Assembly: GCF_004799685.1 (NCBI RefSeq)
Contig: NZ_CP031311.1
Coordinates: 2,721,355 to 2,785,354, forward strand
Direction of reading: 5' to 3'
DNA from: Halobellus limi
Lineage (GTDB): Archaea > Halobacteriota > Halobacteria > Halobacteriales > Haloferacaceae
Length of the DNA stretch: 64,000 nucleotides
Under the pieces are notes generated by a model. The model was not told the DNA's origin. It worked only from the letters and a program-made list of their open reading frames with translations, and did no database searches. Below are positions 3,727 to 43,534 of the stretch, one piece after another (position 1 is the stretch's first letter; each line of letters starts with the position of its first letter). The translations under genes were made by a program, and so were the position numbers.

Positions 3727-3930
3727 TCAGTACAGCTCTCTCTCGCGCTCTTCGCGCTCGCGACGCTCGCGTTCCGCCGCTTTCTGCTCGCGGCGGCCAC
3801 GGAGGTACTGTCGGACGCCCGGGATGAGCTTGTTCTTCAGATCCAGCGCGAACGAGACGAGCCCGTACGCCCAGAAGAAGAACAGGAACGTCACCGCCCC
3901 GACGTACGCGAGGAGGCTCGCCTCGACCAT
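3727..3930 (-). CDS. Small single-span membrane protein coupled to the sugar ABC transporter ATPase gene
   Basis: 67 aa. Residues 4-28 form one hydrophobic segment (LLAYVGAVTFLFFFWAYGLV) and the C-terminal 30 residues are a strongly charged Arg/Glu helix (RREQKAAERERREREERERE). The ATG overlaps the ATPase stop as TGATG, so translation is probably coupled and the gene is the last member of the importer operon. The basic, non-acidic tail is unusual for a haloarchaeal protein. The role is unknown; an accessory or assembly subunit of the importer is an inference from position. Confidence 0.72.
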   Translation of the reverse strand: MVEASLLAYVGAVTFLFFFWAYGLVSFALDLKNKLIPGVRQYLRGRREQKAAERERREREERERELY

Positions 3931-5117
3931 CAGTCGTCCCCTTCGACCTCCGCTTCTCCGGCGGCGCCCGAACCGGGAGTCTCGACGAGTCCGTGCGTGA
4001 GGGCGTCGCCGTTCGAATCGAAGAGGTGGAGTTTCGAGCGGTCCAGCACCACCTCGACGTCCTGTCCCTCGCCGATGTCGCTGTCGGGATCGACGCTCAT
4101 CAGGATCTCACCCGGATCCGACCCCTCCTCCATGCTGCCGCCGACGTCGACGTCCTCGGTCACCAGGTAGACGAAGATCTCGTCGCCCATCGGTTCGAGG
4201 ACGTCCGACCGCGTCGAGACGGCCTGGGTCGGATGCGCGATCTCGTCGCGGTCGGCGGTGACGTACACGTCCTCCGGTCTGACGCCCAGCGTCACCTCCT
4301 GCCCGGGCGTCACGCCGACGGCGGTCGGATCGAACTCGACGTGGACGTCGCCGTAATCGGAACTGAACCCGGTGTCGGTGACCGAACCGGAGATGGTGTT
4401 CATCGAGGGCGACCCGATGAACGTCGCCACGAACAGGTTCGCCGGCTCGTTGTAGCACACGAGCGGGGGTGCGATCTGCTGGAGTTCGCCCGCGTCGAGC
4501 ACGGCGATCCGGTCCGACATCGTCATCGCCTCCGCCTGGTTGTGCGTGACGTAGATGATCGTCGTGTCGAGTTCGCGGTGGAGCCGCTGGAGCTGGGTCC
4601 GCATGTGGACGCGGAGCTTCGCGTCGAGGTTCGCCAGCGGCTCGTCCATCAGGAACACGTCCGGGTCGCGGACGATCGCCCGCGCGATCGCCACCCGCTG
4701 TCGCTGCCCGCCGGACATCTCGTCGGGCATCCGGTCGAGCATCCCTCCGAGTTCGACGACTTCGGCGGCCTCGTCGACGCGGCGGTCGATCTCCTCTTTG
4801 TCGTAGTCGCGGAGCCGGAGCCCGAAGGAGATGTTCTCGTAGACGTCCATGTGCGGGAACAGCGCGATGTTCTGGAACACCATCGAGATCCCGCGGTCCT
4901 TCGGCGGGAGGTTCGTCACGTCCCGGTCGCCGATGCTGACGGTCCCTTCGGAGGGCTTCGTCAGCCCCGCGACCATCTCCATCGTGGTCGATTTCCCGCA
5001 TCCGGACGGTCCGACGAGACAGACGAACTCGCCGTGCCGGATGTCGAGGTTCATATCGTTGACCGCCGTTACGTCGTCGTAGTGCTTGGTTACGTCTTCG
5101 AGTTGTACTCGTGCCAT
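3930..5117 (-). CDS. Sugar ABC transporter ATP-binding protein (CUT1, MalK/UgpC type)
   Basis: 395 aa. The nucleotide-binding domain has Walker A GPSGCGKST (36-44), the signature MSGGQRQRVAIARA near 135, Walker B FLMDEPLANLD near 157-167 and the switch histidine in YVTHNQAEAM. After residue 230 comes the MalK-like TOBE/OB regulatory region (VTLGVRPEDVYV), as in ATPases energising sugar uptake. The C-terminus is acidic. The gene starts 2 nt after the downstream permease stop, so it belongs to one operon: binding protein, permease, permease, ATPase, 67-aa membrane protein. Substrate cannot be read from the sequence. Confidence 0.93.
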   Translation of the reverse strand: MARVQLEDVTKHYDDVTAVNDMNLDIRHGEFVCLVGPSGCGKSTTMEMVAGLTKPSEGTVSIGDRDVTNLPPKDRGISMVFQNIALFPHMDVYENISFGLRLRDYDKEEIDRRVDEAAEVVELGGMLDRMPDEMSGGQRQRVAIARAIVRDPDVFLMDEPLANLDAKLRVHMRTQLQRLHRELDTTIIYVTHNQAEAMTMSDRIAVLDAGELQQIAPPLVCYNEPANLFVATFIGSPSMNTISGSVTDTGFSSDYGDVHVEFDPTAVGVTPGQEVTLGVRPEDVYVTADRDEIAHPTQAVSTRSDVLEPMGDEIFVYLVTEDVDVGGSMEEGSDPGEILMSVDPDSDIGEGQDVEVVLDRSKLHLFDSNGDALTHGLVETPGSGAAGEAEVEGDD

Positions 5118-5119
5118 AG

Positions 5120-6073
5120 TTACTCCTTGAGCGCTCCGGAGGTGAGTCCGCTAACGATTTTCTCCTGTGCGACCACGACGAGGATGGCGACGGGAATCAC
5201 CGCGATGATGCTCCCGGCGGCCATCACGCCGTAGGTGACCTCGAACTGTCCGGCCCGCTGGAGGCTGAGAAGCCCGCCGACGATCGGCGCCCAGTTCTCC
5301 GGCTGACCGTTGTTCATCAGCTGGCTGAAGAAGAACTCGTTGTAGACCGCGATGAACGTGAGGACGCCCGCGGTCGCGACCCCCGGTGCCGACAGCGGCA
5401 CGATCACTCTGAACAGCGCGCCCAGGCGGGTCGTGCCCTCGACCCGGGCGGCGTCCTCTAAGCCGTCGGGGATCTGGCCGTAGAACGTCGTGAGGATGAA
5501 GATCGACAGCGGCATAAACAGCGAACTGAACGGGAGGATCATCGCCCCCGGCGTGTTGTAGAGGCTCAGTCCGCTCACCACGTTGCCGGTGAACAGTTGG
5601 TACAGCGGAACGAAGAACGCCGCCGGCGGGAAGTAGCTGATCGCCAGGATGAGAAGCATCAGCGGCTGGCGGCCGGGGAACTCCAGTCGGCCGAACACGT
5701 ACCCGGCCAGGCTGGCTAGGAACAGGACGATGGCCGTCGTCGACAGCGCCAGCACGATGCTGTTGAGCATGTACCGGAGGAAGTTGATCCGGTCGAACAC
5801 GTCGAGGAACACGCCGAACTCGAGCGTGCTGAGTTGCGGGAGAACCGCCAGACTGCCGGTGTCGGGCGTCACCGCGAGCACCAAGAGGAAGTAGAAGGGA
5901 AAGAGCGTCGTCAGGAGGAAGAAGATCGTCGCCACGTAGAACATCGCGCGGTAGGCGCGCTTCGGGTCCTTGATCGCCTTCCCGACCCACCGCTGGAACG
6001 GTCCCCGGCTGAGTTCGGGTTCGCGGCGTTCGGACTGGACGCCGCCGTCGGAGCGCGTCGATCCGTCGCTCAT
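5120..6073 (-). CDS. Sugar ABC transporter permease, MalG type
   Basis: 317 aa. I start it at the ATG at 6073, which overlaps the stop of the upstream permease as ATGA; the longer open frame upstream is antisense-like filler. After a hydrophilic, Arg-rich N-terminus there are about six membrane segments, starting with MFYVATIFFLLTTLFPFYFL. The cytoplasmic EAA loop that docks the ATPase is LEDAARVEGTTRLGALFRVI. Layout and length fit the second permease of CUT1 importers for oligosaccharides. Confidence 0.92.
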   Translation of the reverse strand: MSDGSTRSDGGVQSERREPELSRGPFQRWVGKAIKDPKRAYRAMFYVATIFFLLTTLFPFYFLLVLAVTPDTGSLAVLPQLSTLEFGVFLDVFDRINFLRYMLNSIVLALSTTAIVLFLASLAGYVFGRLEFPGRQPLMLLILAISYFPPAAFFVPLYQLFTGNVVSGLSLYNTPGAMILPFSSLFMPLSIFILTTFYGQIPDGLEDAARVEGTTRLGALFRVIVPLSAPGVATAGVLTFIAVYNEFFFSQLMNNGQPENWAPIVGGLLSLQRAGQFEVTYGVMAAGSIIAVIPVAILVVVAQEKIVSGLTSGALKE

Positions 6074-7077
6074 TGTCCACCCCGCACGTAGCCCACGATG
6101 TACACGGAGACGGCCACCGCGATGATCGCCGCCGTGATGAACGCGATCGTCGCGGAGGAGCCGAGCATCCGGTTGTTGAACGTCGTGACCACCAGACAGG
6201 ACAGCGACGGGACGGTCGTGCACCCGGCGACGGTCTCGATGAGACCGTACACCCGCATCGCCTGGATCGTGCGGAACAGCATCGCCACCATCACCGTCGG
6301 CAGGATGATGGGGAAGGTGACGTACTTGAACCGCTGCCAGGCCGACGCGCCCGCGACCTTCGCGACGTCGTAGAGGCCGCGGTCGATCGACTGCATCCCC
6401 GCGAGGATCAGGAGCGCCATGAACGCCGTCGTCTTCCAGACGTCGGCCACGATGGCGATCATCGTCGCGTCCTGCGCGTTCGCGAGCGGCGTCGTCGACA
6501 GCAGACCCAGTTGGTTCAAGAACGCGGGGTTGTCGGACGTCCCGACGAGGAACCCGACGTTCGGCTGGAACATCAGGTAGAAGATCATCCCCTGGACGAC
6601 GATCGGGATCGCCCACGGCAGGATGATCGCCACGCGGACCCACCGCCGGCCGCGGAAGTCCTGATCGAGGACGAGCGCCTGCACGAACCCGATGAGCGTC
6701 TCGAAGAACACGCTGATGACGGTGAAGATGACCGTCACCGCGAGCGCGCTGTTGAAGAACGCTCGCGTCGTCAGGGCCTCCGGGAGGAACGGCGACGGCA
6801 GCAGCGCCGTGCGTTCCCCGGTGATGATCGCCACGTAGTTCCCGATTCCGATGAAGTTCCCGACGCTCGCCTGGCCGAAGCTGTCGGCGAACATCGAGAT
6901 CCGGAACGTCGACAGCAGCGGCCAGAAGGCGATGACGCCCAGAAGCAGGAACGCGGGCGTCAAGAGGAGGTACGCGTACTGCGTCTCCGAGAGGTTCTCC
7001 ATCCAGCCCACCGCAGACGCGTACACCCCGCGGTCGCCGCTCTCGGGCGTCTCTCCCGTTCGGTGTTCAGTACTCAT
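6070..7077 (-). CDS. Sugar ABC transporter permease, MalF type
   Basis: 335 aa. Six or more membrane segments beginning with YAYLLLTPAFLLLGVIAFWP, the classic opening of CUT1 permeases, and an EAA-type loop YDVAKVAGASAWQRFKYV. Its stop overlaps the start of the MalG-type gene. The 57 nt separating it from the binding-protein gene are AT-rich (ATTAATAATAAATT) and could hold a second promoter or a processing or termination site that keeps the binding protein more abundant than the membrane parts. Confidence 0.92.
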   Translation of the reverse strand: MSTEHRTGETPESGDRGVYASAVGWMENLSETQYAYLLLTPAFLLLGVIAFWPLLSTFRISMFADSFGQASVGNFIGIGNYVAIITGERTALLPSPFLPEALTTRAFFNSALAVTVIFTVISVFFETLIGFVQALVLDQDFRGRRWVRVAIILPWAIPIVVQGMIFYLMFQPNVGFLVGTSDNPAFLNQLGLLSTTPLANAQDATMIAIVADVWKTTAFMALLILAGMQSIDRGLYDVAKVAGASAWQRFKYVTFPIILPTVMVAMLFRTIQAMRVYGLIETVAGCTTVPSLSCLVVTTFNNRMLGSSATIAFITAAIIAVAVSVYIVGYVRGGQ

Positions 7078-7134
7078 AGTATCGACATCGTACGAAGGTC
7101 GATCATTAATAATAAATTGTGGGTGTCGGTGCCC

Positions 7135-8643
7135 TTACGCCTGGCTCTCGATCGATTCGAGCGACGCCTGAAGCGACTCCATCGCCTCCGAGGAACTCTT
7201 CTCCTGTCGGAGCGCGGCGTTGACCTCGGTGGCGATCTGGTCGGACTGCTGCGGCCACACCGGCGTGACCGGCCGCGGCAGCGCGGCCTCGCCGGCGACC
7301 TGCAGCGTGTCGACGTACCGCCCGATGAGTTCGAGCTGTCGCGTCCGCTCGGTGTTGATGAGGTCGGCGATCGGCGGCGTCCACCCGCCGATCTCGAACA
7401 TCCGGAGCCGGACCTCGTCGGTCTGGAGCGCGCGGAACAGCTGGACGGCCGCCTGCTTGCGCGCGTCGTTGGCGTTCGGGTTGAGCGTGAGGTGCCAGCC
7501 GCCGAGCGCCGAGGTGCTGCCGCCGATCGACTCGTACGGGGAGTCCTCCTGCGAGACCGCGTACGGGATCGGCATCACGCCGAGGTCCTCGCCGAAGGCG
7601 TCCTCGGCCCCGTTGATGTTGATCGAGTACGGCCAGTTGCGGTGGGCGACCGCGTCGCCGTTGGTGAAGGGTTCCCGCGAGGGCTCCTCGGTGTACTGGA
7701 CGACCGCGTCGGGGGAGATGTCCGCGTACCCCTCGAGCGCCTCGTCGTCGTCCTGGCCGTAGATGAACGTCCGCATCATCCGGACGGCGTTGATGACGTT
7801 CTCCTGGTCGACCGTGACCGGGCGGTCGCCGATCGGGCCGAAGTAGTTCTCGAACTCGCCGAAGTACGACCCGCCGTGGGAGCCCATGAACTCGATGAAG
7901 TCACAGCAGGAGAGGCCCTCGTAGGCGGAGCCCTGCCAGGTGAACCCCATCTGGGTGTCGGTCGCGTCCATCGTCTCTCTGACGACCTGCGAGAACTCCT
8001 GCCACGTCATCGGTTCGGTGGCCCAGGTGTCGAAGTCGGAGTCGGAGTAGCCCGCCTCCCGCATCAGGTCCTTCCGGTACTGGATCGTCGGGAAGTCCGC
8101 GAACAGCGGGATGCCGAAGAGGTCGCCGTTCGGCCCCTGCGCCGTCGCGACCATGTTCTGCAGGTAGTCGTTCGTCACCGTGTCGGTGATCGAACTCGGC
8201 AGCACCTGGCTGAGGTTGGCGATCTGCCCCCGCGCGATGAACGGGATCGTCCACCCGTTGTCCATCATCATCACGGTCGGGCGCCCCTGGCCGGCCGAGA
8301 GGATCTGCTGGTACTGCGAGCGGCGGTCCCCCGTCGTGAACGAGCCGGCGAGGAACTCGATGGAGATGTTGTCCGGCAGTCCGCCGTCCTCGTGGAGCGT
8401 CTGGGAGATCTCGTCGGCGGCGTTCGCGAAGTTCGAGTCCGCCGCGATCTGGATGGTGACCTCCTCGTCGGAGGTCGACGTGCCGATCGGGGTGTCGGTC
8501 GACCCGCCGTCGCCCCCGCCGTCACCGCTGCCATCGCCGTTGCCGCCACCCGAACAGCCCGCGAGCCCGACCGCGCCGAGCGCGCCCGTAGCCGCGAGGT
8601 ACTGTCGTCGGGAGACGCCGTTCGAAGTGCTGTCTTGAGGCAT
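7135..8643 (-). CDS. Extracellular sugar-binding lipoprotein of the ABC importer (Tat-exported)
   Basis: 502 aa from the ATG at 8643; a GTG one codon upstream is also in frame. The signal has SRRQYLAATGALG followed by the lipobox LAGC, then a Gly/Asp/Ser-rich linker, so the protein should be exported folded by Tat and anchored by a lipid-modified Cys. The mature part is a family-1 type solute-binding protein (WTIPFIARGQI, GNLSQ-like loop, FTNGDAVAHRNWPYSI). It is first in the importer operon. The neighbouring glycoside hydrolases suggest sucrose, fructo- or gluco-oligosaccharides, but this is inferred from context. Confidence 0.92.
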   Translation of the reverse strand: MPQDSTSNGVSRRQYLAATGALGAVGLAGCSGGGNGDGSGDGGGDGGSTDTPIGTSTSDEEVTIQIAADSNFANAADEISQTLHEDGGLPDNISIEFLAGSFTTGDRRSQYQQILSAGQGRPTVMMMDNGWTIPFIARGQIANLSQVLPSSITDTVTNDYLQNMVATAQGPNGDLFGIPLFADFPTIQYRKDLMREAGYSDSDFDTWATEPMTWQEFSQVVRETMDATDTQMGFTWQGSAYEGLSCCDFIEFMGSHGGSYFGEFENYFGPIGDRPVTVDQENVINAVRMMRTFIYGQDDDEALEGYADISPDAVVQYTEEPSREPFTNGDAVAHRNWPYSININGAEDAFGEDLGVMPIPYAVSQEDSPYESIGGSTSALGGWHLTLNPNANDARKQAAVQLFRALQTDEVRLRMFEIGGWTPPIADLINTERTRQLELIGRYVDTLQVAGEAALPRPVTPVWPQQSDQIATEVNAALRQEKSSSEAMESLQASLESIESQA

Positions 8644-8649
8644 CACCTA

Positions 8650-8710
8650 GGTGTAAGTAACAATGATTAATATACTCATGGGATTTTACAACGACAGTTG
8701 TTAATCAGCT
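8650..8710 (-). promoter_or_regulatory. Promoter and candidate operator of the sugar importer operon
   Basis: On the minus strand, AGTATATTAATCATTG supplies a TATA element about 25-30 nt before the binding-protein start. Just upstream of it lies an interrupted palindrome, ACAAC-GACA-GTTGT (about 8689-8702), within TTTTACAACGACAGTTGTTAA. A site upstream of TATA is where archaeal activators such as TrmB bind. It does not match the TACT-N-GAGTA type motif I recall for Halobacterium TrmB, so the cognate factor is uncertain. Confidence 0.5.
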
Positions 8711-8783
8711 GATCCGCCGAGCGACGGGGGAGACGGGGCCCTATCCTCTTGAAGAAACGACTGCGGTCGGGGAAGCGAGCCCC

Positions 8784-9836
8784 TCACTTGACCACGGTGA
8801 GTCGGGTCCCCTCGACGTCCTCGATGATCGCGCCCCAGCCGCCGACGCTCACGTGTTCGCCGTCGACGTCGAGGTCGACGGTGACCTGTCCGGCGAGTTC
8901 GAACCCGGTGGCGGCCTCGGCGTCGAACGGCACGCGGACGTCGGTGATCGTCCCCTCGAGGTGGCACTCCTCGCCCGTGTTGGTGTCGTAGCCCTCGACG
9001 CGGAGGCGAACCGGGTCGTCCTCCCAGTCGACGTCGCGGAGGTCGCGGACGAGGTGGCGCACGTCGAAATACTCGATCGGGTAGCCGTCATCTCTCGCCT
9101 GATAGACCCGTTCCCAGGGCTCCCACAGACAGGTGAGGAAGTACCAGTAGAACACGTACGTGTGGGTCCGGTCGTTGACGAGCACGCCGTAGCGGTCGTA
9201 GGAGTCCGGGTGGTGCGCGAAGCACGCGCGGCGGCGGTCGGCGAGCGCGACGAACGGCGCGGGGAGCGGTCGGTGGTGGACCTCCGTGCAGAGACCGGCG
9301 AAGCGGTCCGCGTCCAGCGAGACCGCCTCGTCGCTCGTGTGGACGGAGACGCGGACCGAGACCCCCCGGTCCATCGCGTCCTGCAGCGCCGGCCGCAACT
9401 GCTCGAAGTTCTCGATCGTCGTCGAGAGCAGGACCTGGTGACTGGCGCTCGCGATGAAGGACTTCGCGCGGGAGATGACGGTCTGAAAGCGCGTCACGAT
9501 GCTCGCGTCGCCCGCCTCCAGTTCCGGCTGTTCCCACCGCTTCTCGACCTCCTGAGCGGCGCGCTCCAGTCGGTCCGCCCGCTCGGTGAGATCTTCGAGC
9601 ACCGTCGACGGACTGTGCGCTCGCGCACGCAGCGAGGCCTGTTCGAAGGTCTCGATGTACCCGCGGTCCTCCAGGGACCGGAGGACGTCGTAGATACGCG
9701 GTGCCGGCACGTCGCTGGCGTCGGCGACGTCGGTCGCCGGGGCGGTCCCGAGATCCAGGAGCGCCACGTACGCGTCCGCCTGGTACGGCGACAGCCCCGC
9801 CGTTTTCAGCGTCTCGACGAGCGACTCGGTGTCCAT
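8784..9836 (-). CDS. TrmB-family sugar-responsive transcriptional regulator
   Basis: 350 aa. An N-terminal winged helix-turn-helix (LVETLKTAGLSPYQADAYVA through VPAPRIYDVLRSLEDRGYIE, residues 5-65) is followed by a short coiled segment (DLTERADRLERAAQEVEKRW). A phospholipase-D-like/TrmB effector region (SFIASASHQVLLSTTIENFE) comes next, then a beta-rich C-terminal sugar-binding domain. This is the architecture of TrmB regulators that sense intracellular sugars and control ABC importers and central carbon genes. It lies directly behind the importer operon on the same strand with its own promoter region, and is the obvious candidate regulator of this island. Confidence 0.9.
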   Translation of the reverse strand: MDTESLVETLKTAGLSPYQADAYVALLDLGTAPATDVADASDVPAPRIYDVLRSLEDRGYIETFEQASLRARAHSPSTVLEDLTERADRLERAAQEVEKRWEQPELEAGDASIVTRFQTVISRAKSFIASASHQVLLSTTIENFEQLRPALQDAMDRGVSVRVSVHTSDEAVSLDADRFAGLCTEVHHRPLPAPFVALADRRRACFAHHPDSYDRYGVLVNDRTHTYVFYWYFLTCLWEPWERVYQARDDGYPIEYFDVRHLVRDLRDVDWEDDPVRLRVEGYDTNTGEECHLEGTITDVRVPFDAEAATGFELAGQVTVDLDVDGEHVSVGGWGAIIEDVEGTRLTVVK

Positions 9837-12093: not shown

Positions 12094-13770
12094 TCAGGGC
12101 TGCTCGTACACTCGCGTCTCGTAGGGCCGCAGTTCCAGGGTCTCGGCGGGTGTCGCGGTGACGTCTTCGTAGTTACTGACGAGCAGCGAGGCCTCGGGGT
12201 CGAGCACGTCGAGGTCGGCGGTCGCCTCGCGGTCCGAGAAGTTGATCGCGACGACGACACGCTCGTCGTCCAGCGTTCGCGTGTAGACGAACAGCTGCTC
12301 GTCGTCGGGGCGGTGCAGTTCGTACCCGCCGTAGACGAGCGCGTCGGTCCGCTCTCGGAGGTCGATCAGCGACTCGTAGTACGAGAGCACCGACGGCGTC
12401 CGCTCGCGCTCGCGGGCGACGTTGATCTCGGGGTAGTTGTCGTTGACCGGGATCCACGGCTCGCCGTCGGTGAACCCCGCGTGGGCCGTGTCGTCCCATT
12501 GCATCGGCGTCCGCGCGTTGTCGCGCGTCCGGTGCTCGACGACGTGCCGGATCGACGCGTAGTCTTCGACCTCCCCGTCGGCGATCAGTTCCCGGACGTT
12601 CCGGACGGTGTCGACGTCGCTGACGTCGTCGAGGCTCTCGAAGGTGCCGTTCGTCATCCCGAGCTCCTGGCCCTGGTAGACGAACGGCGTCCCGCGGAGC
12701 GTCAGGAGGATCGTCGCGAGCGCCGTCGCCGACTCGTAGCGGTAGCGCTCGTCGTCGCCGAAGCGGGAGACCGACCGGGGCTGGTCGTGGTTCTCGAAGA
12801 ACAGGCTGTTCCAGGCGAGGCCGTCCTGCCAGCGGTGGAGGGTCTCCTTGAGGTCGAGGAGGTCCCACTCGCCGACGTCCCACCGGCCCCGTTCGCCGAA
12901 GTCGAGGCCGACGTGCTCGAAGTGGAAGACCAGATCCAGCGGGCCGTCGGGCCCCGTGTACCGCCGCGCGTGCTCGAGGTCGAGGTTCGGCATCTCTCCG
13001 ATGGCGACGGCGTCGGTGCCGGCGAACACCCGCTCGTGGATCTCGTCGAGGTACTCGAAGATGCGCGGTCCGTCGACGAAGTGTTCGCTCCCGACCCACT
13101 CGTTGTTCGGGTCGCCGTCGGGGAGCCCCTCGGCCTTCGAGAGCAGGCTCACGACGTCCAGGCGGAACCCGTCGATGCCCTTCTCCAGCCACCAGTTCAT
13201 CGCGTCGACCATCGCGTCGCGGACAGCGGGGTTCCGCCAGTTGAGGTCCGGCTGGCTGACGTCGTAGAGGTGGAGGTACCACGCCTCGCGCTCGTCGTCG
13301 TACTCCCAGGCCGATCCCCCGAAGAAGGACTCCCAGTTGTTCGGGGGCACCGGATCGCCGTTCGCGTCGGTGTCGCCGTCGCGCCAGATGTAGTAGTCGC
13401 CGTACTCGCCGTCGGGATCCGAGCGCGACCGCTGGAACCACTCGTGGTCCGTCGACGTGTGGTTGGGGACCATATCCATCACGAGCCGGATGTCGCGCTC
13501 GTGGAGCTCCTCGAGGAGGCGGTCCCAGTCGTCCATCGTGCCGAACTCGGGGTAGATCGCGCGGTAGTCACTGACGTCGTAGCCGTTGTCGCGCTGCGGG
13601 GACTCATAGACCGGGTTGAGCCAGACGCAGTCGACGCCGAGTCGTTCGAGGTGGTCGAGTCGCTCGATGACGCCCGGGAGGTCCCCGAACCCGTCGCCGT
13701 CGGAGTCGCTGAAGCTCTTCGGATAGATCTGATATACGACTGCTTCCTTCCACCAGGTGCGTTCTCTCAT
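12094..13770 (-). CDS. GH13 alpha-glucosidase (oligo-1,6-glucosidase subfamily)
   Basis: 558 aa from the ATG at 13770 (MRERTWWKEAVVYQIYPKSF). GH13 signature regions: DMVPNHTS (99-106), GFRLDVV with nucleophile Asp205, IGEMP with acid/base Glu259, and FENHDQPR with Asp329. The QPDLNW sequence marks the oligo-1,6-glucosidase subfamily. Val after the nucleophile is the residue associated with alpha-1,6 rather than alpha-1,4 preference in this subfamily. There is no signal peptide, so it should act on imported oligosaccharides in the cytoplasm, releasing glucose. It is transcribed divergently from the GH32 gene across a shared 289-nt promoter region. Confidence 0.93.
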   Translation of the reverse strand: MRERTWWKEAVVYQIYPKSFSDSDGDGFGDLPGVIERLDHLERLGVDCVWLNPVYESPQRDNGYDVSDYRAIYPEFGTMDDWDRLLEELHERDIRLVMDMVPNHTSTDHEWFQRSRSDPDGEYGDYYIWRDGDTDANGDPVPPNNWESFFGGSAWEYDDEREAWYLHLYDVSQPDLNWRNPAVRDAMVDAMNWWLEKGIDGFRLDVVSLLSKAEGLPDGDPNNEWVGSEHFVDGPRIFEYLDEIHERVFAGTDAVAIGEMPNLDLEHARRYTGPDGPLDLVFHFEHVGLDFGERGRWDVGEWDLLDLKETLHRWQDGLAWNSLFFENHDQPRSVSRFGDDERYRYESATALATILLTLRGTPFVYQGQELGMTNGTFESLDDVSDVDTVRNVRELIADGEVEDYASIRHVVEHRTRDNARTPMQWDDTAHAGFTDGEPWIPVNDNYPEINVARERERTPSVLSYYESLIDLRERTDALVYGGYELHRPDDEQLFVYTRTLDDERVVVAINFSDREATADLDVLDPEASLLVSNYEDVTATPAETLELRPYETRVYEQP

Positions 13771-14059: not shown

Positions 14060-16207
14060 ATGGTTTCGACGCCGGTTCGCGTCGGGTTTCTCGTCGACGG
14101 GCGCCCGAGCGACCAACAGGCGGCCGCGCGGGAGTGGGCGAGCGACCGGTACGACCTGGACGTGATCGAGGTCGACGACGTCGCCGCGTCGACGTCGTAC
14201 GACGTGATCTGGTGGCACCGCGAGGAGGAGTTGCGGGACATCGACGAGGACGTCGCGTCGGCGCTCGAAGGCTACGTCCGGGACGGCGGCGGCCTCCTCC
14301 TCGGGCTCCGGGCGGTGAGTGCGGTCGAACCGCTCGGAATCGACCCGGTCGCACCGGACGCCGTCGGCACCGCGAGCGTGTCCGCCCCGGCGGGGCTGCT
14401 GTGGCGCTCGGTGTACGACGACCACCCCGCCGTCGAGGGGTTCGACGGTCTGCGGATTCCGATCGCAGACCACGGGACCGTGCCGTTCGCGCGGTACGAG
14501 GCGGTCCTCCCGGCCGAGGGCGAAGTCCTCGCCGCGACCGTCGAGGGCGAACACGACCGCCCCGTGCAGACGTCGGTGGTCTCCTGGCACCACGGCGACG
14601 GCGCGGTGCTGGGCGCCAGCGCGTTGGCGTTCGGGGGCGATCCGGCCGAGGAGATCGCCGCCAACCGCGACCGCGTCGCCGCGGGGTTTCTCGAGTCGCT
14701 GGCGGCCGGTCCGGATTCCCGGTTCGACCGACCGACGGATCGAGAGGGGTTCGAGCGCCTCCGCGCGCGCCTCCGCGACGACCCGCACCGGCCCCGGTTC
14801 CACGTCACGTCGCCCGCGAACTGGATCAACGACCCGAACGGCCTCATCGAACACGAGGGGCGGTACCACGTGTTCTACCAGTACAACCCGGCCGGCCCCT
14901 ACCACCACGCGATCCACTGGGGCCACGCCGTCAGCGACGACCTCGTCCACTGGCGGGACGAGCCGCTCGCGCTCGCGCCCACTCCGGACGGCCCCGACCG
15001 CGACGGCTGCTGGTCGGGGTGTGCGATCGACGACGAGGGGACGCCGACGCTCCTGTACACGGGCGGGCGCGGACGCAAACAGCTCCCGTGTCTGGCGACC
15101 GCCACCGACGGGTCGCTCCGGTCGTGGCGCAAGGATACGGCGAACCCGATCATCGAGGAGGCGCCGACCGACCTGGACATCCTGGAGACCGAACACTGGG
15201 AGGCGGAGTTCCGAGACCACTGCGTCTGGCGGGAGGACGGCCTGTGGCACCAGATCATCGGATCGGGCGTCACCGACGTCGGCGGGACGGCGTTGCACTA
15301 CACGGCCGAGGACCTCCGCGACTGGACGTACGAGGGGCCGCTGCTGGTCGGCGAGGGGCCGGACTCCGGGGCCGTCTGGGAGTGTCCGGAGCTGTTGCGA
15401 CTGGGCGAGAAGGAGCTGCTGCACGTCTCCAACTACGAGGACGTGGTGTACTTCATCGGCGAGCGCGGCGACGGCGGTTTCGAGGTGGACTCCCGGGGCC
15501 TCCTGGATCACGGTGACTTCTACGCCCCGCAGTCGATGGCGGTCGGGGACGGCTACCTGACCTGGGGCTGGCTCCCGGAGGCCCGCGACAACGAGGCCCA
15601 GTGGGACGCCGGGTGGTCGGGAGCGCTGTCGGTGCCGCGCCGCATCGACGTCGACGAGTCCGGCGACCTCAGACAGCGTCCGGCGGCCGAGCTGAAAGCC
15701 CTCAGGGAAACCCAATACGTCGACTCGGCCGCGATCGACCTCGACGACGAGCGGAGAGAACTGCCGGCGAGCGGCCGGACCCTGGAACTGACGGCGACGA
15801 TGACCCTCCGCGACGCCGACGCGGTGACGCTGTCGGTCTTCGAGTCGCCCGACCGGCGCGAGCGAACCGAGATCAGTTACACCGCCGGAAACGAACTGGT
15901 CGTCGACCGGTCGAACGCCAGCGAGGACCACCGGGCGCGGAGCGACGAGCAGCGGATGGAAGTCACGCCGTACGACGAGCCGCTGTCGCTGCGGCTGTTC
16001 CTCGACGGCTCCGTCATCGAGGCGTTCGTCAACGACCGCCACTGCCTGACGAGCCGCGTCTACCCCACCCGGGACGACAGCACCGGGCTCGCCGTCGCCG
16101 CCGTGGGCGGCCGCGCCGAAATCGGCGACTTCTCGGTGTGGGAACTCGGCGACGCGTGGCCGACGGCCGAAGAGCGCACGCCGCGGTCGACGGCCGCGAC
16201 GCGGTAG
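14060..16207 (+). CDS. GH32 fructosidase with N-terminal glutamine-amidotransferase-like domain
   Basis: 715 aa. Residues 1-215 form a Rossmann-like domain (VRVGFLVDGRPSDQQAAARE, YVRDGGGLLLGLRAV, VSWHHGDGAVLGASA) resembling class I glutamine-amidotransferase/ThuA folds but without an obvious catalytic Cys-His-Glu triad. Residues 245-540 are the GH32 five-bladed propeller: WINDPNG with nucleophile Asp258, FRDHCVW with Arg385-Asp386 and WECPEL with acid/base Glu441. A C-terminal GH32C beta-sandwich follows (FLDGSVIEAFVNDR). GH32 enzymes hydrolyse sucrose, levan or inulin from the fructose end. No signal peptide is present, so it is probably cytoplasmic. The start at 14060 fits the TATA spacing; the in-frame ATG at 14006 does not. 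Confidence 0.92.
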   Translation: MVSTPVRVGFLVDGRPSDQQAAAREWASDRYDLDVIEVDDVAASTSYDVIWWHREEELRDIDEDVASALEGYVRDGGGLLLGLRAVSAVEPLGIDPVAPDAVGTASVSAPAGLLWRSVYDDHPAVEGFDGLRIPIADHGTVPFARYEAVLPAEGEVLAATVEGEHDRPVQTSVVSWHHGDGAVLGASALAFGGDPAEEIAANRDRVAAGFLESLAAGPDSRFDRPTDREGFERLRARLRDDPHRPRFHVTSPANWINDPNGLIEHEGRYHVFYQYNPAGPYHHAIHWGHAVSDDLVHWRDEPLALAPTPDGPDRDGCWSGCAIDDEGTPTLLYTGGRGRKQLPCLATATDGSLRSWRKDTANPIIEEAPTDLDILETEHWEAEFRDHCVWREDGLWHQIIGSGVTDVGGTALHYTAEDLRDWTYEGPLLVGEGPDSGAVWECPELLRLGEKELLHVSNYEDVVYFIGERGDGGFEVDSRGLLDHGDFYAPQSMAVGDGYLTWGWLPEARDNEAQWDAGWSGALSVPRRIDVDESGDLRQRPAAELKALRETQYVDSAAIDLDDERRELPASGRTLELTATMTLRDADAVTLSVFESPDRRERTEISYTAGNELVVDRSNASEDHRARSDEQRMEVTPYDEPLSLRLFLDGSVIEAFVNDRHCLTSRVYPTRDDSTGLAVAAVGGRAEIGDFSVWELGDAWPTAEERTPRSTAATR

Positions 16208-16274: not shown

Positions 16275-16338
16275 CGCACCGCGTCAGGTGGCGACACTAC
16301 GTCGAGCGTACCGCGTCAGGTACCCGTACTACGTCGAG
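16275..16338 (-). repeat. 32-bp tandem duplication over the levansucrase 3' end
   Basis: Copy A (16275-16306) and copy B (16307-16338) are adjacent and agree at 26 of 32 positions; both begin CG-ACCGCGTCAGGT and end ACTACGTCGAG. Copy B contains the last codons and stop (16329-16331) of the levansucrase gene, and copy A lies entirely past the stop. The unit is not a multiple of three. Confidence 0.75.
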
Positions 16339-17771
16339 TAGCCGTAGTACGAACCGACGGAGTCGATCCGGACCTCGTCGTCGGTCCCGCCGTCGGTCGC
16401 CGCGCCGTCGCGGTCGACGTACTCCGACTCCCGGAAGTCGCGTCGGGCCGACGGACCGAGCGGGCCCTCGCCGTCCTCGGGAACGGCTCCGGCGGGGTCG
16501 TCGACGTCGAAGTCGGGCAGCGACTCGTTCGACGTCGGGATGTGCCAGTGGTCGAGCGTGCCGAGCACCCGCGTGCGGTCGCCGTCGACCGCGAGCCGGA
16601 TCGTCGGCCCCAGGGTCCCGCCGAACCGGCGGCGCTGTTCGCGCTCGGAGAGGTGCGCGATCTCGTCGAGCGAGTCGCCGGCGAAGTCGAAGTAGTTGAA
16701 GAAGCTCTCGACGAGGATCTCCTCGCGGTGCGGGAACGCCATCCACGAGTACGCCTGGAAGGGGGCGTTGTGGGGATTCGTGACGACCAGCCCCGAGTCG
16801 TTCAGGGGTCGGTAGGGGCCGCCCAGCGAGTCGGCGACGAATCCGTAGAGCGCGTCGTAGCCCTCGAGTCCGGGCGCGAAGGTGTGCATGTGGCTCGACA
16901 CGAAGAGGTAGTACCGCCCGTCGCGGTAGACCACGTGCGGCCGTTCGAGTTCCTGGTTGGTGCAGACGCTCTCGAGGATCGGCGGGCGGAGTTCCCACTC
17001 CATCGGGTCGCCCGACGGCGACACCGCGACGCCGACGGCGCCGTTGAACTCCTGCAGACCGTCGTCGCCGCCGCAGCGGTCGCTCCCCTCGGGGACCGGC
17101 GCGTTGGCCTCGAACAGCAGGCAGACCTCGCCCGTCTCCGGATCCTCGTAGAACCACGGGTCGCGGAAGGTGTAGATCATCCCCCGGGACTGCGATTCGG
17201 TCTCGTACCACTCGCCGTCGGGGCGGAGCAGTTCGTGGTGGGTCCATAGGCCGTCGATCGAGAGCGAGGAGCCGGTGGTCGTGACGGTCCCGCCCGACGC
17301 GCCCACGAGACGCTGCGTGTACGTCAGTTCCGCGGCCCCCTCGGTCCCGGCCGCGGTGTAGTAGAGGTAGACGTCGCCGTCGTCGTACAGCGCCGATCCG
17401 GCCCACTGACGCTGGCCGAGGGCGTCGTCGGCGAACACGGGGCCGCCGTCGTGCCACCGCCGGCCGTCGCGCGAGTAGAAGTACCGGATCGCGGCGACGT
17501 CGTGGCGCTTGCCGGGGAGGAGGTCTCTCGGGGCCGTGAGCGAGAACACGACGCGCCAGCCGTCGAGGTCCGCCACCCGGCCGTGGCGGTCCCGCAACAG
17601 CCACGTGTCCCAGACGTGGACGTCCTCGGCGGGCGTCGACTCGGGCGGGTAGATGATCGGTGCGACCGTCTCGGGCGTGCGCTCGATCCCGGCGGCCTGC
17701 TCGCGACTCCACCGCGAACGCGGCGGGTCACCGCCGACGTTCGGTTCCCTGTTGGACGGTCGGTCGGGCAT
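16329..17771 (-). CDS. GH68 levansucrase/inulosucrase-type fructosyltransferase
   Basis: 480 aa from the ATG at 17771; an in-frame TTG two codons upstream is less likely. GH68 catalytic motifs are all present: VHVWDTW with nucleophile Asp55, TFRDPWFY with the transition-state Asp204, and NQELERPH with acid/base Glu276. GH68 enzymes split sucrose and transfer fructose to water, sucrose or a growing fructan. Bacterial family members are secreted, but this protein begins MPDRPSNREPNVGGDPP with no Sec or Tat signal, so an intracellular reaction or an unknown export route is implied. It is convergent with GH32, the natural pair for making and breaking fructans. Confidence 0.93.
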   Translation of the reverse strand: MPDRPSNREPNVGGDPPRSRWSREQAAGIERTPETVAPIIYPPESTPAEDVHVWDTWLLRDRHGRVADLDGWRVVFSLTAPRDLLPGKRHDVAAIRYFYSRDGRRWHDGGPVFADDALGQRQWAGSALYDDGDVYLYYTAAGTEGAAELTYTQRLVGASGGTVTTTGSSLSIDGLWTHHELLRPDGEWYETESQSRGMIYTFRDPWFYEDPETGEVCLLFEANAPVPEGSDRCGGDDGLQEFNGAVGVAVSPSGDPMEWELRPPILESVCTNQELERPHVVYRDGRYYLFVSSHMHTFAPGLEGYDALYGFVADSLGGPYRPLNDSGLVVTNPHNAPFQAYSWMAFPHREEILVESFFNYFDFAGDSLDEIAHLSEREQRRRFGGTLGPTIRLAVDGDRTRVLGTLDHWHIPTSNESLPDFDVDDPAGAVPEDGEGPLGPSARRDFRESEYVDRDGAATDGGTDDEVRIDSVGSYYGYST

Positions 17772-17950
17772 CGTCAAAAAGTGAACTCACCTCGAAATAA
17801 CTCTTTTTACTCGGTAGCGGTCCCCGCCTGCCGAGAAGACGGCCGGGCCGACCGACTCGACGGGATGGCCGGTTTGTACTAAATATTAACTCAAATCTAA
17901 GTTAAAATCTCAAAAGACTCAAGTAGTTGTGGCTCGTTGATACAACCAAG
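17772..17950. promoter_or_regulatory. Divergent promoter region between levansucrase and universal stress protein
   Basis: The left side, GAAATAACTCTTTTTACTCGG (about 17793-17813), provides T-rich elements for levansucrase. The right side is very AT-rich (AAATATTAAC at 17881, GTTAAAATCT at 17901), and the latter is a plausible TATA box about 45 nt before the stress-protein ATG, giving a leader of roughly 20 nt. No clear palindrome is seen. Confidence 0.45.
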
Positions 17951-20915: not shown

Positions 20916-22466
20916 ATGACAGATCGACGGTGGGCGACCCGACGCAGCGCGCTCAAGTTCGGGGCTGTCGGATCCTTCGGAGCCGTAACGGGGCTAGTGC
21001 CGATAGTCTCGCAGGCCGCGCCCGAGGGCATCGAGGACTGTACGACGATCGACGAACCCGGCGAGTACGAACTCAAAAACGACATCACGGGAGGCGGAAC
21101 CCTCGGTCCCGACGACGACGCGTGTATCGAGATTCGATCGGACGGTGTCATACTCGACGGGAACGGATATGTGATCGAAGGCGACGGGGACGGAACGGGA
21201 ATCTTAACCGAAACGGGAGGACTGAACTCGACAATTCAAAACCTCACGGTACGGGGGTTCGAGTACGGAATCGAGGACGATTTTGCTTCCCGATTGACGA
21301 TCAAGTCAGTGACGAGCGAACAGAACCGCGTCGGAATATACGGAGACCTGTCCACGATCACCTGTACGAACTCGACTATTCGTGAAAACGACAACGACGG
21401 GATCAGTTTGTTTAACGGTGAGAGCCTGATCGTACGCGACTGCGAGATCCGTGACAACGGGGGGAATCCCGTCCTTATGTGCTGCCGCAATCGGGTCGTG
21501 TTCGAAGACTGTGTGATCGTTGGGAACGGCGAACCGGCAAGGTTTCCGATGGTTCCGGGCACGAGAATCGAGGGAACGGAGATCGCAGAGTCCAGCGGAG
21601 CGGGTATCAGCACGATATACGGCGACAGGCAAAACACTCCCGACGAGCCGGTAGAAATCACCGACAGTTACATTCACGACAACGACGGCCCCGGAATCGC
21701 ACACGGCAACGGCTATCTCGAAGTCATAGGATGCACGCTCTCCGGAAATCAAGATGGGTACTACGCGGACGGCATCGAAGCGGGAAGCGCCGTACTCAGG
21801 TACAACAACATCGAGGACAACGAAGAGTACGGAGCGTTCTTCCGGGAAGTTTTAGAAGGAGAGGTCGACGCCGAATGCAACTACTGGGGGGACGAGAGCG
21901 GTCCGAAGCACCCGAACAACCCCCGGAGCGATCCGAAAGGCCAACGCGTAACCGCCTCCATCGATGTCGTCCCGTGGTCGGTCGAGCGGATCAAAGACAA
22001 CGAGGGCGTCTGCATCGGCGGGCAGGAACGGGTCGGCTACATCAGCCTGTCGTCGTTCACGAAGGTGACTGGTGACGACGAGGTTGCCTGTGTGCCTGAC
22101 GAGGACGGTTGGGGAGACAGTTTCTACATACGGCGGGAGGCCCGAAACGGCTGGAGCGACGAGGGCGTCGTCGTCGACGTCCCGAACTCGTCGCAGTCCT
22201 TCCGCGGCTATCTCATAACTGCAGAGGGGGACACCCCCAGTAGCGGCGGGCCGAGCGGCGAGGGGCCCTGGGGAGAGGACTGCAGTAGCTGGTTGTTCGT
22301 CAACGAGGAACAGGAGGTCCAGTTCGACATCGAACAGACGGTCCACGACCCAGAGCCGATAGTCGCCCACGAAGCGGTGCAACCCACGAACGGCGACGGC
22401 GACGACGTCGGACTTCCGCTCGATCTGGTCCGGACCACGTTCGCGCCGTTCGCCGAAGCGGAGTAG
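20916..22466 (+). CDS. Tat-exported right-handed beta-helix (NosD/PbH1-type) protein, paralogue 1
   Basis: 516 aa. The N-terminus TDRRWATRRSALKFGAVGSF followed by GAVTGLVPIVSQAAP is a Tat signal with a probable signal-peptidase site near SQAAP. Residues about 40-340 are parallel beta-helix repeats (ILDGNGYVIEGDGDGTGI, LTVRGFEYGIEDD, ITCTNSTIRENDNDGISL, IRDNGGNP) ending in NYWGDESGPKHPNNP, a common cap of NosD-like periplasmic proteins. After about 370 a separate domain (GWSDEGVVVDVPNSSQSFRG, HDPEPIVAHEAVQPTNGDGD) is shared only with the next gene. Beta-helix proteins often bind or cleave polysaccharides; no catalytic residues could be assigned. Probably secreted. Confidence 0.85.
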   Translation: MTDRRWATRRSALKFGAVGSFGAVTGLVPIVSQAAPEGIEDCTTIDEPGEYELKNDITGGGTLGPDDDACIEIRSDGVILDGNGYVIEGDGDGTGILTETGGLNSTIQNLTVRGFEYGIEDDFASRLTIKSVTSEQNRVGIYGDLSTITCTNSTIRENDNDGISLFNGESLIVRDCEIRDNGGNPVLMCCRNRVVFEDCVIVGNGEPARFPMVPGTRIEGTEIAESSGAGISTIYGDRQNTPDEPVEITDSYIHDNDGPGIAHGNGYLEVIGCTLSGNQDGYYADGIEAGSAVLRYNNIEDNEEYGAFFREVLEGEVDAECNYWGDESGPKHPNNPRSDPKGQRVTASIDVVPWSVERIKDNEGVCIGGQERVGYISLSSFTKVTGDDEVACVPDEDGWGDSFYIRREARNGWSDEGVVVDVPNSSQSFRGYLITAEGDTPSSGGPSGEGPWGEDCSSWLFVNEEQEVQFDIEQTVHDPEPIVAHEAVQPTNGDGDDVGLPLDLVRTTFAPFAEAE

Positions 22467-22726: not shown

Positions 22727-24274
22727 ATGACTGATCGGCGGCGAACGACTCGGCGTGGCGCGCTCAAGTTCGGGGCTATCGGGTCCTTCGGAGCAGTGAC
22801 CGGACTGGTCCCGATGGTCTCACAGGCCGCGCCCGAAGGCATCGAGGACTGTACGACCATCGACGAACCCGGCGAATACGAGCTCAATAACGACATCACG
22901 GGAGGCGGAACCCTCGGTCCCGACGACGACGCGTGTATCGCGATTCAAGCGGGCGATGTCACGCTCGACGGGAACGGCTACACGCTCGAAGGAGACGGCG
23001 ACGGAGTAGGGGTCCGGATCGGGATGTACGGGCCGGAATCGACGGTACGAAACCTCACGGTTCGGAATTTCGATCGAGGGATCGCACCGGAGTACGGGTC
23101 GGTCGTCGCGATCGATTCCGTGACAGTCGAGGGAAACGCCGAGGGGATACGGGGCGAGTTATCGGACCTCACCTGTACGAACTCGGTCGTTCGGGACAAC
23201 GACGGGTACGGCATTTACCTCAGTAACGAGACCCTGACCGTCCGAAACTGCGAGATACGCGACAACGGCGGCGCTCCAATTGGGATGTGTTGCCGTGGGT
23301 CAGTGGTTGTCGAGGAGTGTGAGATCGTCGGGAACGGGGGTCCGGTCTGGTTCACAATAAACCCCGACACGAGAATCGAGGGGAGCGTGATCGCCGGATC
23401 CAGCGAGGAGGGAATCGCAACGGGAGTGGGCGATATGCACAACGCCCCCGACGAGCCCGTTCGCATCACGGACTGTTACATCCACGATAACGAGGGCCCC
23501 GGAATCAACCACCGCAACGGATATTTCGAAGTGAGACAGTGTACGCTCGCCGGCAATCGGGACGGGTACTACGCGGATGGAATCGAAGTGGGCAGCGCCG
23601 TACTCAAATATAACAACATCGAAAATAACGAGGAGTACGGGGCGTTCTTCCGGAAGGAGTTCGAGAACGAAGTCGACGCGGAATGCAACTACTGGGGTCA
23701 CGAGAGCGGTCCGAAGCACCCGAACAACCCCCAGAGCGATCCGAGGGGCGAACGCGTCACCGAAAGCATCGACGTCACCCCGTGGTCGGTCGAGCGGATC
23801 GAAGACGGCGAGGGCGTCTGCATCGGCGGGCAAGAACAGGTCGGCTACATCAGTCAGTCGTCGTTCGCGAAGGTGATCGGCGACGACGAGGTCGCCTGTG
23901 TCCCCAATGGGAACGGCTGGGAAGAGACGTTCTACATACGGCGAGAGGCCCGGAACGGCTGGAGCGACGAGGGCGTCGTCGTCGACGTCCCGAATTCCTC
24001 ACAACGGTTCCGCGGCTACCTCATAACTGCGACGGGAGACACCACTTGCAACGGCGGCCCGAGCGGCGAGGGTCCCTGGGGAGAGGACTGCGGTAGCTGG
24101 GTGTTCGTCGACGAATCGCAGGACGTTCAGGTCGACGTCGAACACAGCGTCCACGACCCCGAGGCGACGGTCGCCCACGAGGCGATCCAGCCCACGAACG
24201 GCGACGGCGAAGAGGTCGGACTCCCGCTCGATCTGGTACGGACCACGTTCGCTCCCTTCGCTGAGTCGGAGTAG
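22727..24274 (+). CDS. Tat-exported right-handed beta-helix (NosD/PbH1-type) protein, paralogue 2
   Basis: 515 aa, clearly a tandem copy of the preceding gene. The Tat signal (RRRTTRRGALKFGAIGSFGA), the TTIDEPGEYEL start of the mature part, the NYWGHESGPKHPNNP helix cap and the C-terminal domain are almost the same. Differences concentrate in the middle coils of the beta-helix (VRNLTVRNFDRGIAPEYGSV against IQNLTVRGFEYGIEDDFASR), the face that would contact a ligand. This suggests duplication followed by diversification of binding specificity. It has its own 260-nt upstream region with the CTAACAAAA element. Function unknown; probably secreted or surface-associated. Confidence 0.85.
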   Translation: MTDRRRTTRRGALKFGAIGSFGAVTGLVPMVSQAAPEGIEDCTTIDEPGEYELNNDITGGGTLGPDDDACIAIQAGDVTLDGNGYTLEGDGDGVGVRIGMYGPESTVRNLTVRNFDRGIAPEYGSVVAIDSVTVEGNAEGIRGELSDLTCTNSVVRDNDGYGIYLSNETLTVRNCEIRDNGGAPIGMCCRGSVVVEECEIVGNGGPVWFTINPDTRIEGSVIAGSSEEGIATGVGDMHNAPDEPVRITDCYIHDNEGPGINHRNGYFEVRQCTLAGNRDGYYADGIEVGSAVLKYNNIENNEEYGAFFRKEFENEVDAECNYWGHESGPKHPNNPQSDPRGERVTESIDVTPWSVERIEDGEGVCIGGQEQVGYISQSSFAKVIGDDEVACVPNGNGWEETFYIRREARNGWSDEGVVVDVPNSSQRFRGYLITATGDTTCNGGPSGEGPWGEDCGSWVFVDESQDVQVDVEHSVHDPEATVAHEAIQPTNGDGEEVGLPLDLVRTTFAPFAESE

Positions 24275-42458: not shown

Positions 42459-43418
42459 TCACCGCGAGATCCCGCCGGCGTTCCGTTCGACGACGGCGTC
42501 GACTTCCTCGGCCGTGACGACGGCCAGGTCGCCGTCGACGGTGCGCTTCAGCGACGCGGTCGCCGCGCCGTAGGCGAGCGCGTCGGAGACGTCGCCGCCG
42601 TCGAGTCGCTTCGCGAGGAAGCCGCCGACGAACGCGTCGCCCGTCCCGATCGGATCGAACGTCTCGGCGTCGTAGACGTCCTGTTCGTACACCTCGCCGT
42701 CGTGGACCGCGAGAGAGCCGCTCTCGCCGCGCGTGAGGACGACCGTCTCGAAGTCGAAGTCACGGAGGAGGCCGTTCGCCACCTCCACGGCGTCGCCCTC
42801 GCGGCCGAGACAGGTCGCCGCGTCGCGCTCGGCGGCGACGAGCACGTCCACGTGCGGGAACAGCGACTCGTAACGCTCGCCGGCCTCCATCGGCGACCAG
42901 AGCTTCCCCCGGTAGTTCAGGTCGAACGCCGTGGTCGTCCCCCTCTCCTGGGCCGCCCGGAGCAGCGCCTCGGTCGTCTCCCCGAGCGTCTGCGAGAGCG
43001 CCGGCGTGATGCCGCTCGTGTAGAAGACGCTCGCGTCGTCGAGCGCGCCGGCCGGGAGCTCCCCGGGGGTCGCCGTCGTCACCGAGGCGTCGGCCCGGTC
43101 GTAGATCACGTCGGTCCCGCGCGGTTCCCCGCCGTGTTCGAGGTAGTACGTCCCCAGCCGCGCGTCGTCGGAACCGTCCCACGCGACGTCCATGCGTACC
43201 CCGTGGCTCCGCAGTTCCGAGACGATCCGGCGCCCGAGCGCCGAGTCCGGCAGCTTCGAGATCCAGGTCGCGTCGCGGCCGAGGCGGGCGGCCGCCACGG
43301 CGACGTTGCTCTCTGCGCCCCCCGTCCGGACGCCGAGTTCGGACGTCCGTTCGAGTCGTTCGCCCCGGGGCGGCGAGAGCCTGAGCATCGTCTCGCCGAA
43401 GGTCACGATGTCGGTCAT
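42459..43418 (-). CDS. kdgK: PfkB-family sugar kinase, probable 2-keto-3-deoxygluconate kinase
   Basis: 319 aa from the ATG at 43418. PfkB features: [15 protein letters not shown] (33-47), [10 protein letters not shown], and the anion-hole/catalytic motif [13 protein letters not shown] with base Asp261. The N-terminus ([20 protein letters not shown]) closely resembles haloarchaeal KDG kinases of the semi-phosphorylative Entner-Doudoroff pathway. A fructokinase is the main alternative and would fit the fructose-releasing enzymes in the window, which otherwise lack a fructose kinase. Confidence 0.83.
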
Positions 43419-43534
43419 ACTCCCCTCTTGAGTCAGGGAGTACATAATTGCGATTATCGCCGGAGGGTCGCGGTGGTCGCGGTGGGCGGCGTTCACCTTC
43501 GGTACCGGCCGAACGGCGCGGCAGAAACGCCGAT

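Follow-up and report, generated by a model that had tools for sequence, protein, structure and literature searches.

Where does a fructosyltransferase act when it carries no recognizable export signal? The question is raised by a GH68 gene in the 64,000-nucleotide stretch of DNA analyzed here (the window), which a sequence-only reading had described as a levansucrase without an export signal, lying beside an intracellular fructosidase and perhaps building a store of fructan within the cell. The gene is the single GH68 match in its haloarchaeal assembly (3.75 Mb), and its product matches Pfam PF02435 with 262.5 bits against a cut-off of 27 (E 9e-78). The N terminus, MPDRPSNREPNVGGDPPRSRWSREQAAGIERT, is short and polar, and under simple hydropathy and twin-arginine motif rules, used rather than SignalP, both a hydrophobic segment and a twin-arginine signal are absent from it. 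The features of the locus are listed in Table 1.

Table 1. Features of the GH68 locus and its neighborhood, in window coordinates
Feature	Coordinates	Strand	Basis
Sugar ABC importer and TrmB-type regulator	3930..9836	-	Family matches
Importer ATPase	3930-5117	-	Family match
Importer permeases	5120-6073 (putative, from reading frame), 6070-7077	-	Sequence reading / family match
Importer binding protein, Tat-like N terminus by eye	7135-8646	-	Family match
TrmB-type regulator	8784-9836	-	Family match
GH13 alpha-glucosidase-like enzyme	12094..13770	-	Family match
DUF4960-like domain fused to GH32 beta-fructosidase, without signal	14060..16207	+	Start at 14060 likely, 18 codons inside the longest ORF
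DUF4960-like N-terminal domain of GH32 partner	14060..14782	+	Profile comparison
GH32 catalytic propeller of partner	14801..15682	+	PF00251, E 1.5e-67
GH68 fructosyltransferase, probably inulosucrase type, 480 aa, without signal peptide	16329..17771	-	Intact ORF
GH68 C-terminal tail, residues 429-480, pLDDT <50, end GSYYGYST (Gly-x-Tyr motif)	16332..16487	-	Model and sequence
HMHT (residues 294-297), the HXHT marker of archaeal inulosucrases	16881..16892	-	Marker from passages of PMC8066391
Acid/base Glu276 (ELERP motif)	16944..16946	-	Alignment; role from passages of PMC8066391
Cys270, second of Cys pair	16962..16964	-	Alignment
Cys233, first of Cys pair; positional counterpart of the HmcIsc C229-C266 pair	17073..17075	-	Alignment
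Transition-state stabilizer Asp204 (RDP motif)	17160..17162	-	Alignment; role from passages of PMC8066391
Nucleophile Asp55 (WDT motif)	17607..17609	-	Asp in 95/95 signal-less and 10/10 Tat-type proteins; role from passages of PMC8066391
Start ATG of GH68	17769..17771	-	Homologous ATG 43-58 residues before WDT in 95/95 aligned signal-less proteins
In-frame stop TGA, six codons 5' of GH68 ATG	17787..17789	-	Read from sequence
TATA-like box TTATTT, -29 to -24 of GH68 ATG	17795..17800	-	Putative promoter

The catalytic motifs are intact, as had been claimed, with D55, D204, and E276 invariant in all 95 aligned signal-less proteins (window included), but motifs, fold, and sequence point away from the name levansucrase. 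A complete HXHT is found in 92 of the 95 signal-less proteins and is replaced by HXFT in all 10 Tat-type relatives, and D369 of the window protein has an equivalent Asp in 93 of the 95. Passages of PMC8066391 give HXHT and a characteristic Asp as features of archaeal inulosucrases; we took the latter to be D365 of HmcIsc (Halomicrobium sp. IBSBa), and equated D369 with it by position and not through the HmcIsc sequence. The AlphaFold2 model of the window protein is a five-bladed propeller (mean pLDDT 85.3), the closest match among solved structures is to Halalkalicoccus jeotgali inulosucrase (7bj4; E 4.7e-180), and the fold match to 7bjc has a TM-score of 0.98 by target (Foldseek E 8.1e-60). 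The window enzyme is thus probably of the inulosucrase type, with a predicted beta-2,1 product; the same source warns that inulosucrases and levansucrases are not yet safely separable by sequence.

The H. jeotgali enzyme (7bj4, 7bj5, and 7bjc) shares the fold of the window protein at 64% identity in structural alignment, but the window protein differs from the 7bj4 chain in its longer C-terminal tail and in a Met that takes the place of the Asp in the 7bj4 HXHT motif. Locus L091 encodes a 428-aa protein like the 7bj4 chain, identical over the start compared, with a short polar N terminus and a Gly-Tyr end. As described in passages of PMC8066391, HmcIsc resembles the window group in length, catalytic positions (D53), HXHT, and a C229/C266 pair, and in lacking a SignalP 5.0 signal, although its authors follow PRED-TAT, which predicts a signal, and hold that the enzyme acts outside the cell. 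The Gram-negative enzymes of Erwinia (4d47), Pseudomonas syringae (8qj5), and Zymomonas (9ibs) have the GH68 fold in common with the window protein at 32 to 34% identity and, unlike it, are named levansucrases. GH68 proteins of Rahnella and Pantoea lack an N-terminal signal by eye, as the window protein does, but stop 7 residues past the IPP of the fold without a long tail; the Rahnella protein has Gly-Tyr at the fold edge.

A misread N terminus, with an upstream start that would add a signal peptide, is highly improbable. We chose as homologous start the last ATG at least 36 residues ahead of the WDT motif, and then profiled the upstream DNA of the 95 signal-less genes (window included). A/T content at -28 to -26 of this ATG is 86, 95, and 89%, against a background from -60 to -1 of mostly 20 to 50% with lesser peaks near -40, -33, and -10. 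An A/T peak at this distance from the ATG is the pattern of a leaderless haloarchaeal promoter, and because the ATG was picked before the profile was computed, the sharp peak is independent support for the start; it locates the start of transcription close to the ATG throughout the 95 genes, and the TTATTT box of the window gene fits a leaderless transcript. Judged by stops alone, open codons upstream of the ATG number 20 or fewer in 54 of the 95 genes. They number more than 40 in 26, and a loose Tat filter flags 11 of 143 signal-less frames, both of which favor an upstream start; the flagged stretches, however, lie 5' of the conserved ATG and are by eye unconserved. For the window, where a hidden upstream signal had been named as a finding that would overturn the idea, the codons preceding the ATG in frame are ACG, TTG, TTT, CAC, GTT, and then, further upstream, TGA, which leaves no room for one. 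An upstream start with a signal peptide was accordingly ruled out by the in-frame stop and the promoter profile, and, with translation starting at an apparently leaderless ATG, the sequence shows a product that has neither a Sec nor a Tat signal. The claimed absence of either signal is borne out, by the same hydropathy and motif rules, for the window protein and for the signal-less group, as is the start codon by comparison among haloarchaeal homologues.

Of 391 sampled Halobacteria genomes, 154 have a PF02435 match. A first set of 100 stretches, the window, and three short loci gave 105 distinct GH68 frames, 95 of them signal-less (56 to 100% identity to the window protein) and 10 Tat-signaled (40 to 49%). 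The full set adds 44 further stretches and nine re-searched genomes, and covers 153 of the 154 genomes (G114 was left out), with proteins sharing their last 150 residues counted once. It comprises 143 signal-less proteins (143 genomes), a few of them from broken genes (e.g., in G333 and G264), and 13 Tat-type proteins, all Tat-flagged, a motif filter having removed two Tat-type proteins (L034 and L117) and three fragments. Both types occur together in four genomes (G112, G216, G326, and G348). A weakly supported branch (65/91) separates the signal-less group from the other rows of a 47-row tree, in which the long branches of the bacterial sequences are unreliable. In a contig scan for bacterial relatives, the 80 places retained out of 120 confirmed ones are all archaeal by title, and the best named match is that of Halobellus rarus (92% identity; the window's own records were possibly omitted). 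The scan also places this GH68 in Haloferax gibbonsii and Haloarcula vallismortis. We note that in genome G264 (L271, L279, and L282) GH68 is fragmented across two reading frames but the DUF4960-like domain persists, and that a GH68 of the Tat-type group on Haloterrigena turkmenica plasmid pHTUR01 (L213) lies in a sugar locus that also holds a TrmB-family regulator, a binding protein, ABC transporter genes, and a GH32.

The convergent GH32 neighbor, 121 bp from GH68 in the window, is likewise real, conserved, and equally devoid of a signal peptide, both in the window and across 78 starts. The leaderless-type A/T peak is seen at these 78 GH32 starts too, and the window GH32 start was moved to 14060 on this basis. 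At 89 signal-less loci (three more with uncalled GH68 being excluded), GH32 is downstream and convergent in 76, either adjacent (59) or with another called ORF between (17), with a median gap of 32 bp; it is otherwise placed in one and missing from the stretch in 12, and in nine of these 12 genomes a relative of the partner is encoded at another place. A convergent GH32 is found at none of nine Tat-type loci. The DUF4960-like domain of the partner is present in 144 of the 391 genomes, 142 of which also have GH68, leaving two with the domain only and 12 with GH68 only (Fisher p 2.9e-89, uncorrected for relatedness). It accompanies signal-less GH68 in 138 of 143 genomes, and is present in three of the 10 genomes with Tat-type GH68 only (G181, G192, and G250).

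The window copy of this domain scores 17.4 bits with PF16324 (DUF4960), below the cut-off of 29.2, which two of five scanned partner domains pass (39.2 and 31.4 bits), the window's own not among them. A 22-row profile of the domain matches the Bacteroides DUF4960 chain of 8a9y with E 3.2e-13 over approximately 90 aligned residues. From passages of PMC7618045, which liken the C-terminal domain of the Bacteroides levan-binding protein to a ThuA-like protein, this chain, present also in 8aa0 and 8aa2, is taken to be BT1761 of the levan utilisome. BT1761 is a surface lipoprotein without a catalytic domain, unlike the fused GH32 partner, and as reported in the portion of PMC7782687 consulted it does not bind inulin; inulin binding by the archaeal domain is therefore unsure, and fructan binding there is putative. 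GH68 and DUF4960-GH32 form a conserved pair, and they would work together as a fructan module.

Signal-less proteins continue past the fold into a tail that varies among them. Gly-(x)-Tyr lies within the last 12 residues of 73 of 95 signal-less and none of 10 Tat-type proteins of the first set, and of 40 of 1129 other ORFs from the same loci; among the 143 signal-less proteins of the full set, 96 have it within this distance and 117 have a looser pattern within the last 20. Several signal-less tails have GGY placed further inside. In 112 tails, G.?Y was observed in 92, against a mean of 37.8 and a maximum of 48 in a pooled shuffle keeping G and Y content; 29 of 141 proteins were uncut by the script and left out, and some cuts take in fold residues. 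No docking of the tail on its own fold was seen in either of two models, the tail end having pLDDT <50 in both. Five signal-less genomes are without the partner: G068, G149, and G284, which are of one genus, G138, and G161. Their tails end in GPFW (G068), GPYW (G149, still fitting the loose pattern), and GPFW (G284), or are nearly absent (G138), so that the tail end is changed or missing in four of the five, three of these four being one genus. G161 (L100) retains GGYG; the tail is thus not a strict marker of the partner, and the link between the two is only suggestive. The motif near the end is also missing in other genomes that do have the partner. These sequence patterns, from few lineages, hint that the tail may serve in docking, and the disordered tail, through its Gly-x-Tyr end, is a candidate for a part in sorting or docking. 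The Zymomonas levansucrase of PDB 9ibs is listed as a self-assembled nanotube, and assembly is conceivable for the tailed archaeal enzymes.

The GH13 protein is above the phosphotrehalase subfamily cut-off (PRK10933) and below the TreC equivalog cut-off, and, lying next to the sugar importer, may act on alpha-glucosides. Two tandem plus-strand genes (20916-22466 and 22727-24274) have similar products (516 and 515 aa) whose N termini look Tat-like by eye; the first, the only one of the pair scanned, has no NCBIfam match. A PfkB kinase on the minus strand (42459-43583) scores 540 bits (cut-off 440) with the haloarchaeal KDG/KDGal kinase model, and is not a fructokinase; the assembly has further PfkB matches at other places.

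Because GH13, GH32, GH68, and a sugar importer share one stretch, GH68 might mainly be a sucrase or beta-fructosidase that releases glucose and fructose, with fructan as a by-product and a catabolic role alongside GH32 and GH13. PMC9726719, where consulted, lists the GH32 and GH68 of one archaeon as beta-fructosidases apparently permitting growth on levan. We nonetheless regard such a role as improbable, since the closest characterized enzymes produce inulin or bind kestose (passages of PMC8066391; 7bj4) and the acceptor-site markers examined are conserved.

The location of a mainly synthetic enzyme is more evenly contested. In our assessment the chances are about equal, for and against, that the window GH68 acts on sucrose outside the cell after signal-independent export, which we judge somewhat likelier than a cytoplasmic fructan cycle. 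With chemistry taken from the family and its markers, the enzyme would split sucrose and hold fructose on Asp55 until its transfer, with either a lengthening beta-2,1 fructan or water as the acceptor; it would be the synthetic half of a module with the DUF4960-GH32 beta-fructosidase as the other. It would meet sucrose outside by a route like that reported for Gram-negative GH68, perhaps with the conserved tail end as the sorting or docking element, and GH32 would digest fructans either inside, after short-chain uptake, or outside by the same unsignaled route. The haloarchaeal cytoplasm is rich in KCl. In passages of PMC8066391, HmcIsc suffers "tremendous inhibition" by K+ salts and works best at 3.5 M NaCl, and the medium in which its strain was grown yielded purified inulin (there cited from an earlier paper); both observations speak for action outside the cell and against a cytoplasmic cycle, and both come from one paper on one enzyme, placed in the group by description and not by sequence. 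Levansucrases of Gluconobacter, Zymomonas, and P. syringae are reported, in the part of PMC11540611 consulted, to be secreted by a signal-peptide-independent pathway, so a cytoplasmic location does not follow from a missing signal, and the assumption that levansucrases of bacteria depend on one for their action outside the cell fails for some Gram-negatives. Natronocalculus amylovorans AArc-St2 reportedly grows on inulin (passages of PMC9726719), and G054, a genome fitting this strain, has a single GH32 match, of the signal-less DUF4960 type and beside a signal-less GH68, which argues that at least there the module serves outside fructan, through uptake or unsignaled export; short-chain uptake and hydrolysis inside can also explain this growth.

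A cytoplasmic cycle, in which imported sucrose would be turned inside the cell into inulin or fructo-oligosaccharides, serving as a store or an osmotic buffer, and DUF4960-GH32 would bind and degrade these products, is a substantial possibility, though we hold it to be less than an even one. No signal is found in the 95 signal-less proteins, whose starts are of the leaderless type, and the nearly obligate partner is equally signal-less, which counts against export. The existence of Tat-signaled GH68 in the family, with both types in four genomes, means that an ordinary export route was available, and we know of no signal-independent export route of this kind in haloarchaea. A sugar importer and TrmB-type regulator are close by, and the partner domain is a relative of DUF4960, which has a levan-binding protein among its members, although binding of levan and not inulin by BT1761 weighs on the other side, as does the lack of any report of intracellular fructan in the passages of literature covered. 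Taken together, signal absence and a conserved signal-less GH32 with its DUF4960-like domain make a cytoplasmic fructan cycle a serious hypothesis. The store proposed by the sequence-only reading therefore gains from these two observations and loses from K+ inhibition, medium inulin, and the fact that an absent signal is no proof of the cytoplasm; the alternative that it had offered, exit by an unknown route, is at least as likely. The broader proposition that approximately one-third of haloarchaeal genomes run such an inulin cycle, from imported sucrose to degradation by DUF4960-GH32, with the two enzymes possibly joined by the Gly-x-Tyr tail, is on balance unlikely.

Cysteine content and amino acid composition were considered as indicators of compartment and set aside. 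Both cysteines of the pair are present in 67 of 95 signal-less proteins, one in 13, and neither in 15, and the pair is present in two of 10 Tat-type proteins; as proof of an oxidizing compartment this patchy pattern is indecisive. Cysteines beyond the pair occur in 71 of the 95, but an argument from them to a reducing compartment was dropped because Tat-type and soluble controls are equal, at 3.19 Cys per 400 aa. A composition classifier built from 49 Tat-type and 482 soluble proteins (cross-validated AUC 0.872) scores 91 of 95 signal-less GH68, all 10 Tat-type GH68, and 38 of 84 GH32 proteins as exported-like, a result that leans toward export for GH68 but is confounded by fold.

In the literature covered, passages on haloarchaeal inulosucrases show that such enzymes are already known, one of them crystallized, and argue their place of action from signal prediction and inulin in the medium rather than from fractionation. 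The tail motif, the DUF4960-GH32 partner, and the split into two groups go unmentioned in the passages on related enzymes, which were retrieved by a search not aimed at them. The signal-less and Tat-signaled groups, and the four genomes that have both, offer a direct contrast for testing location, and the near-obligate DUF4960-GH32 partner supplies a defined second gene of the system. If export without a signal is true, it would add an archaeal case to the route reported for Gram-negative GH68; if instead the fructan is stored inside the cell, this would, to our knowledge, be unusual for a prokaryote.
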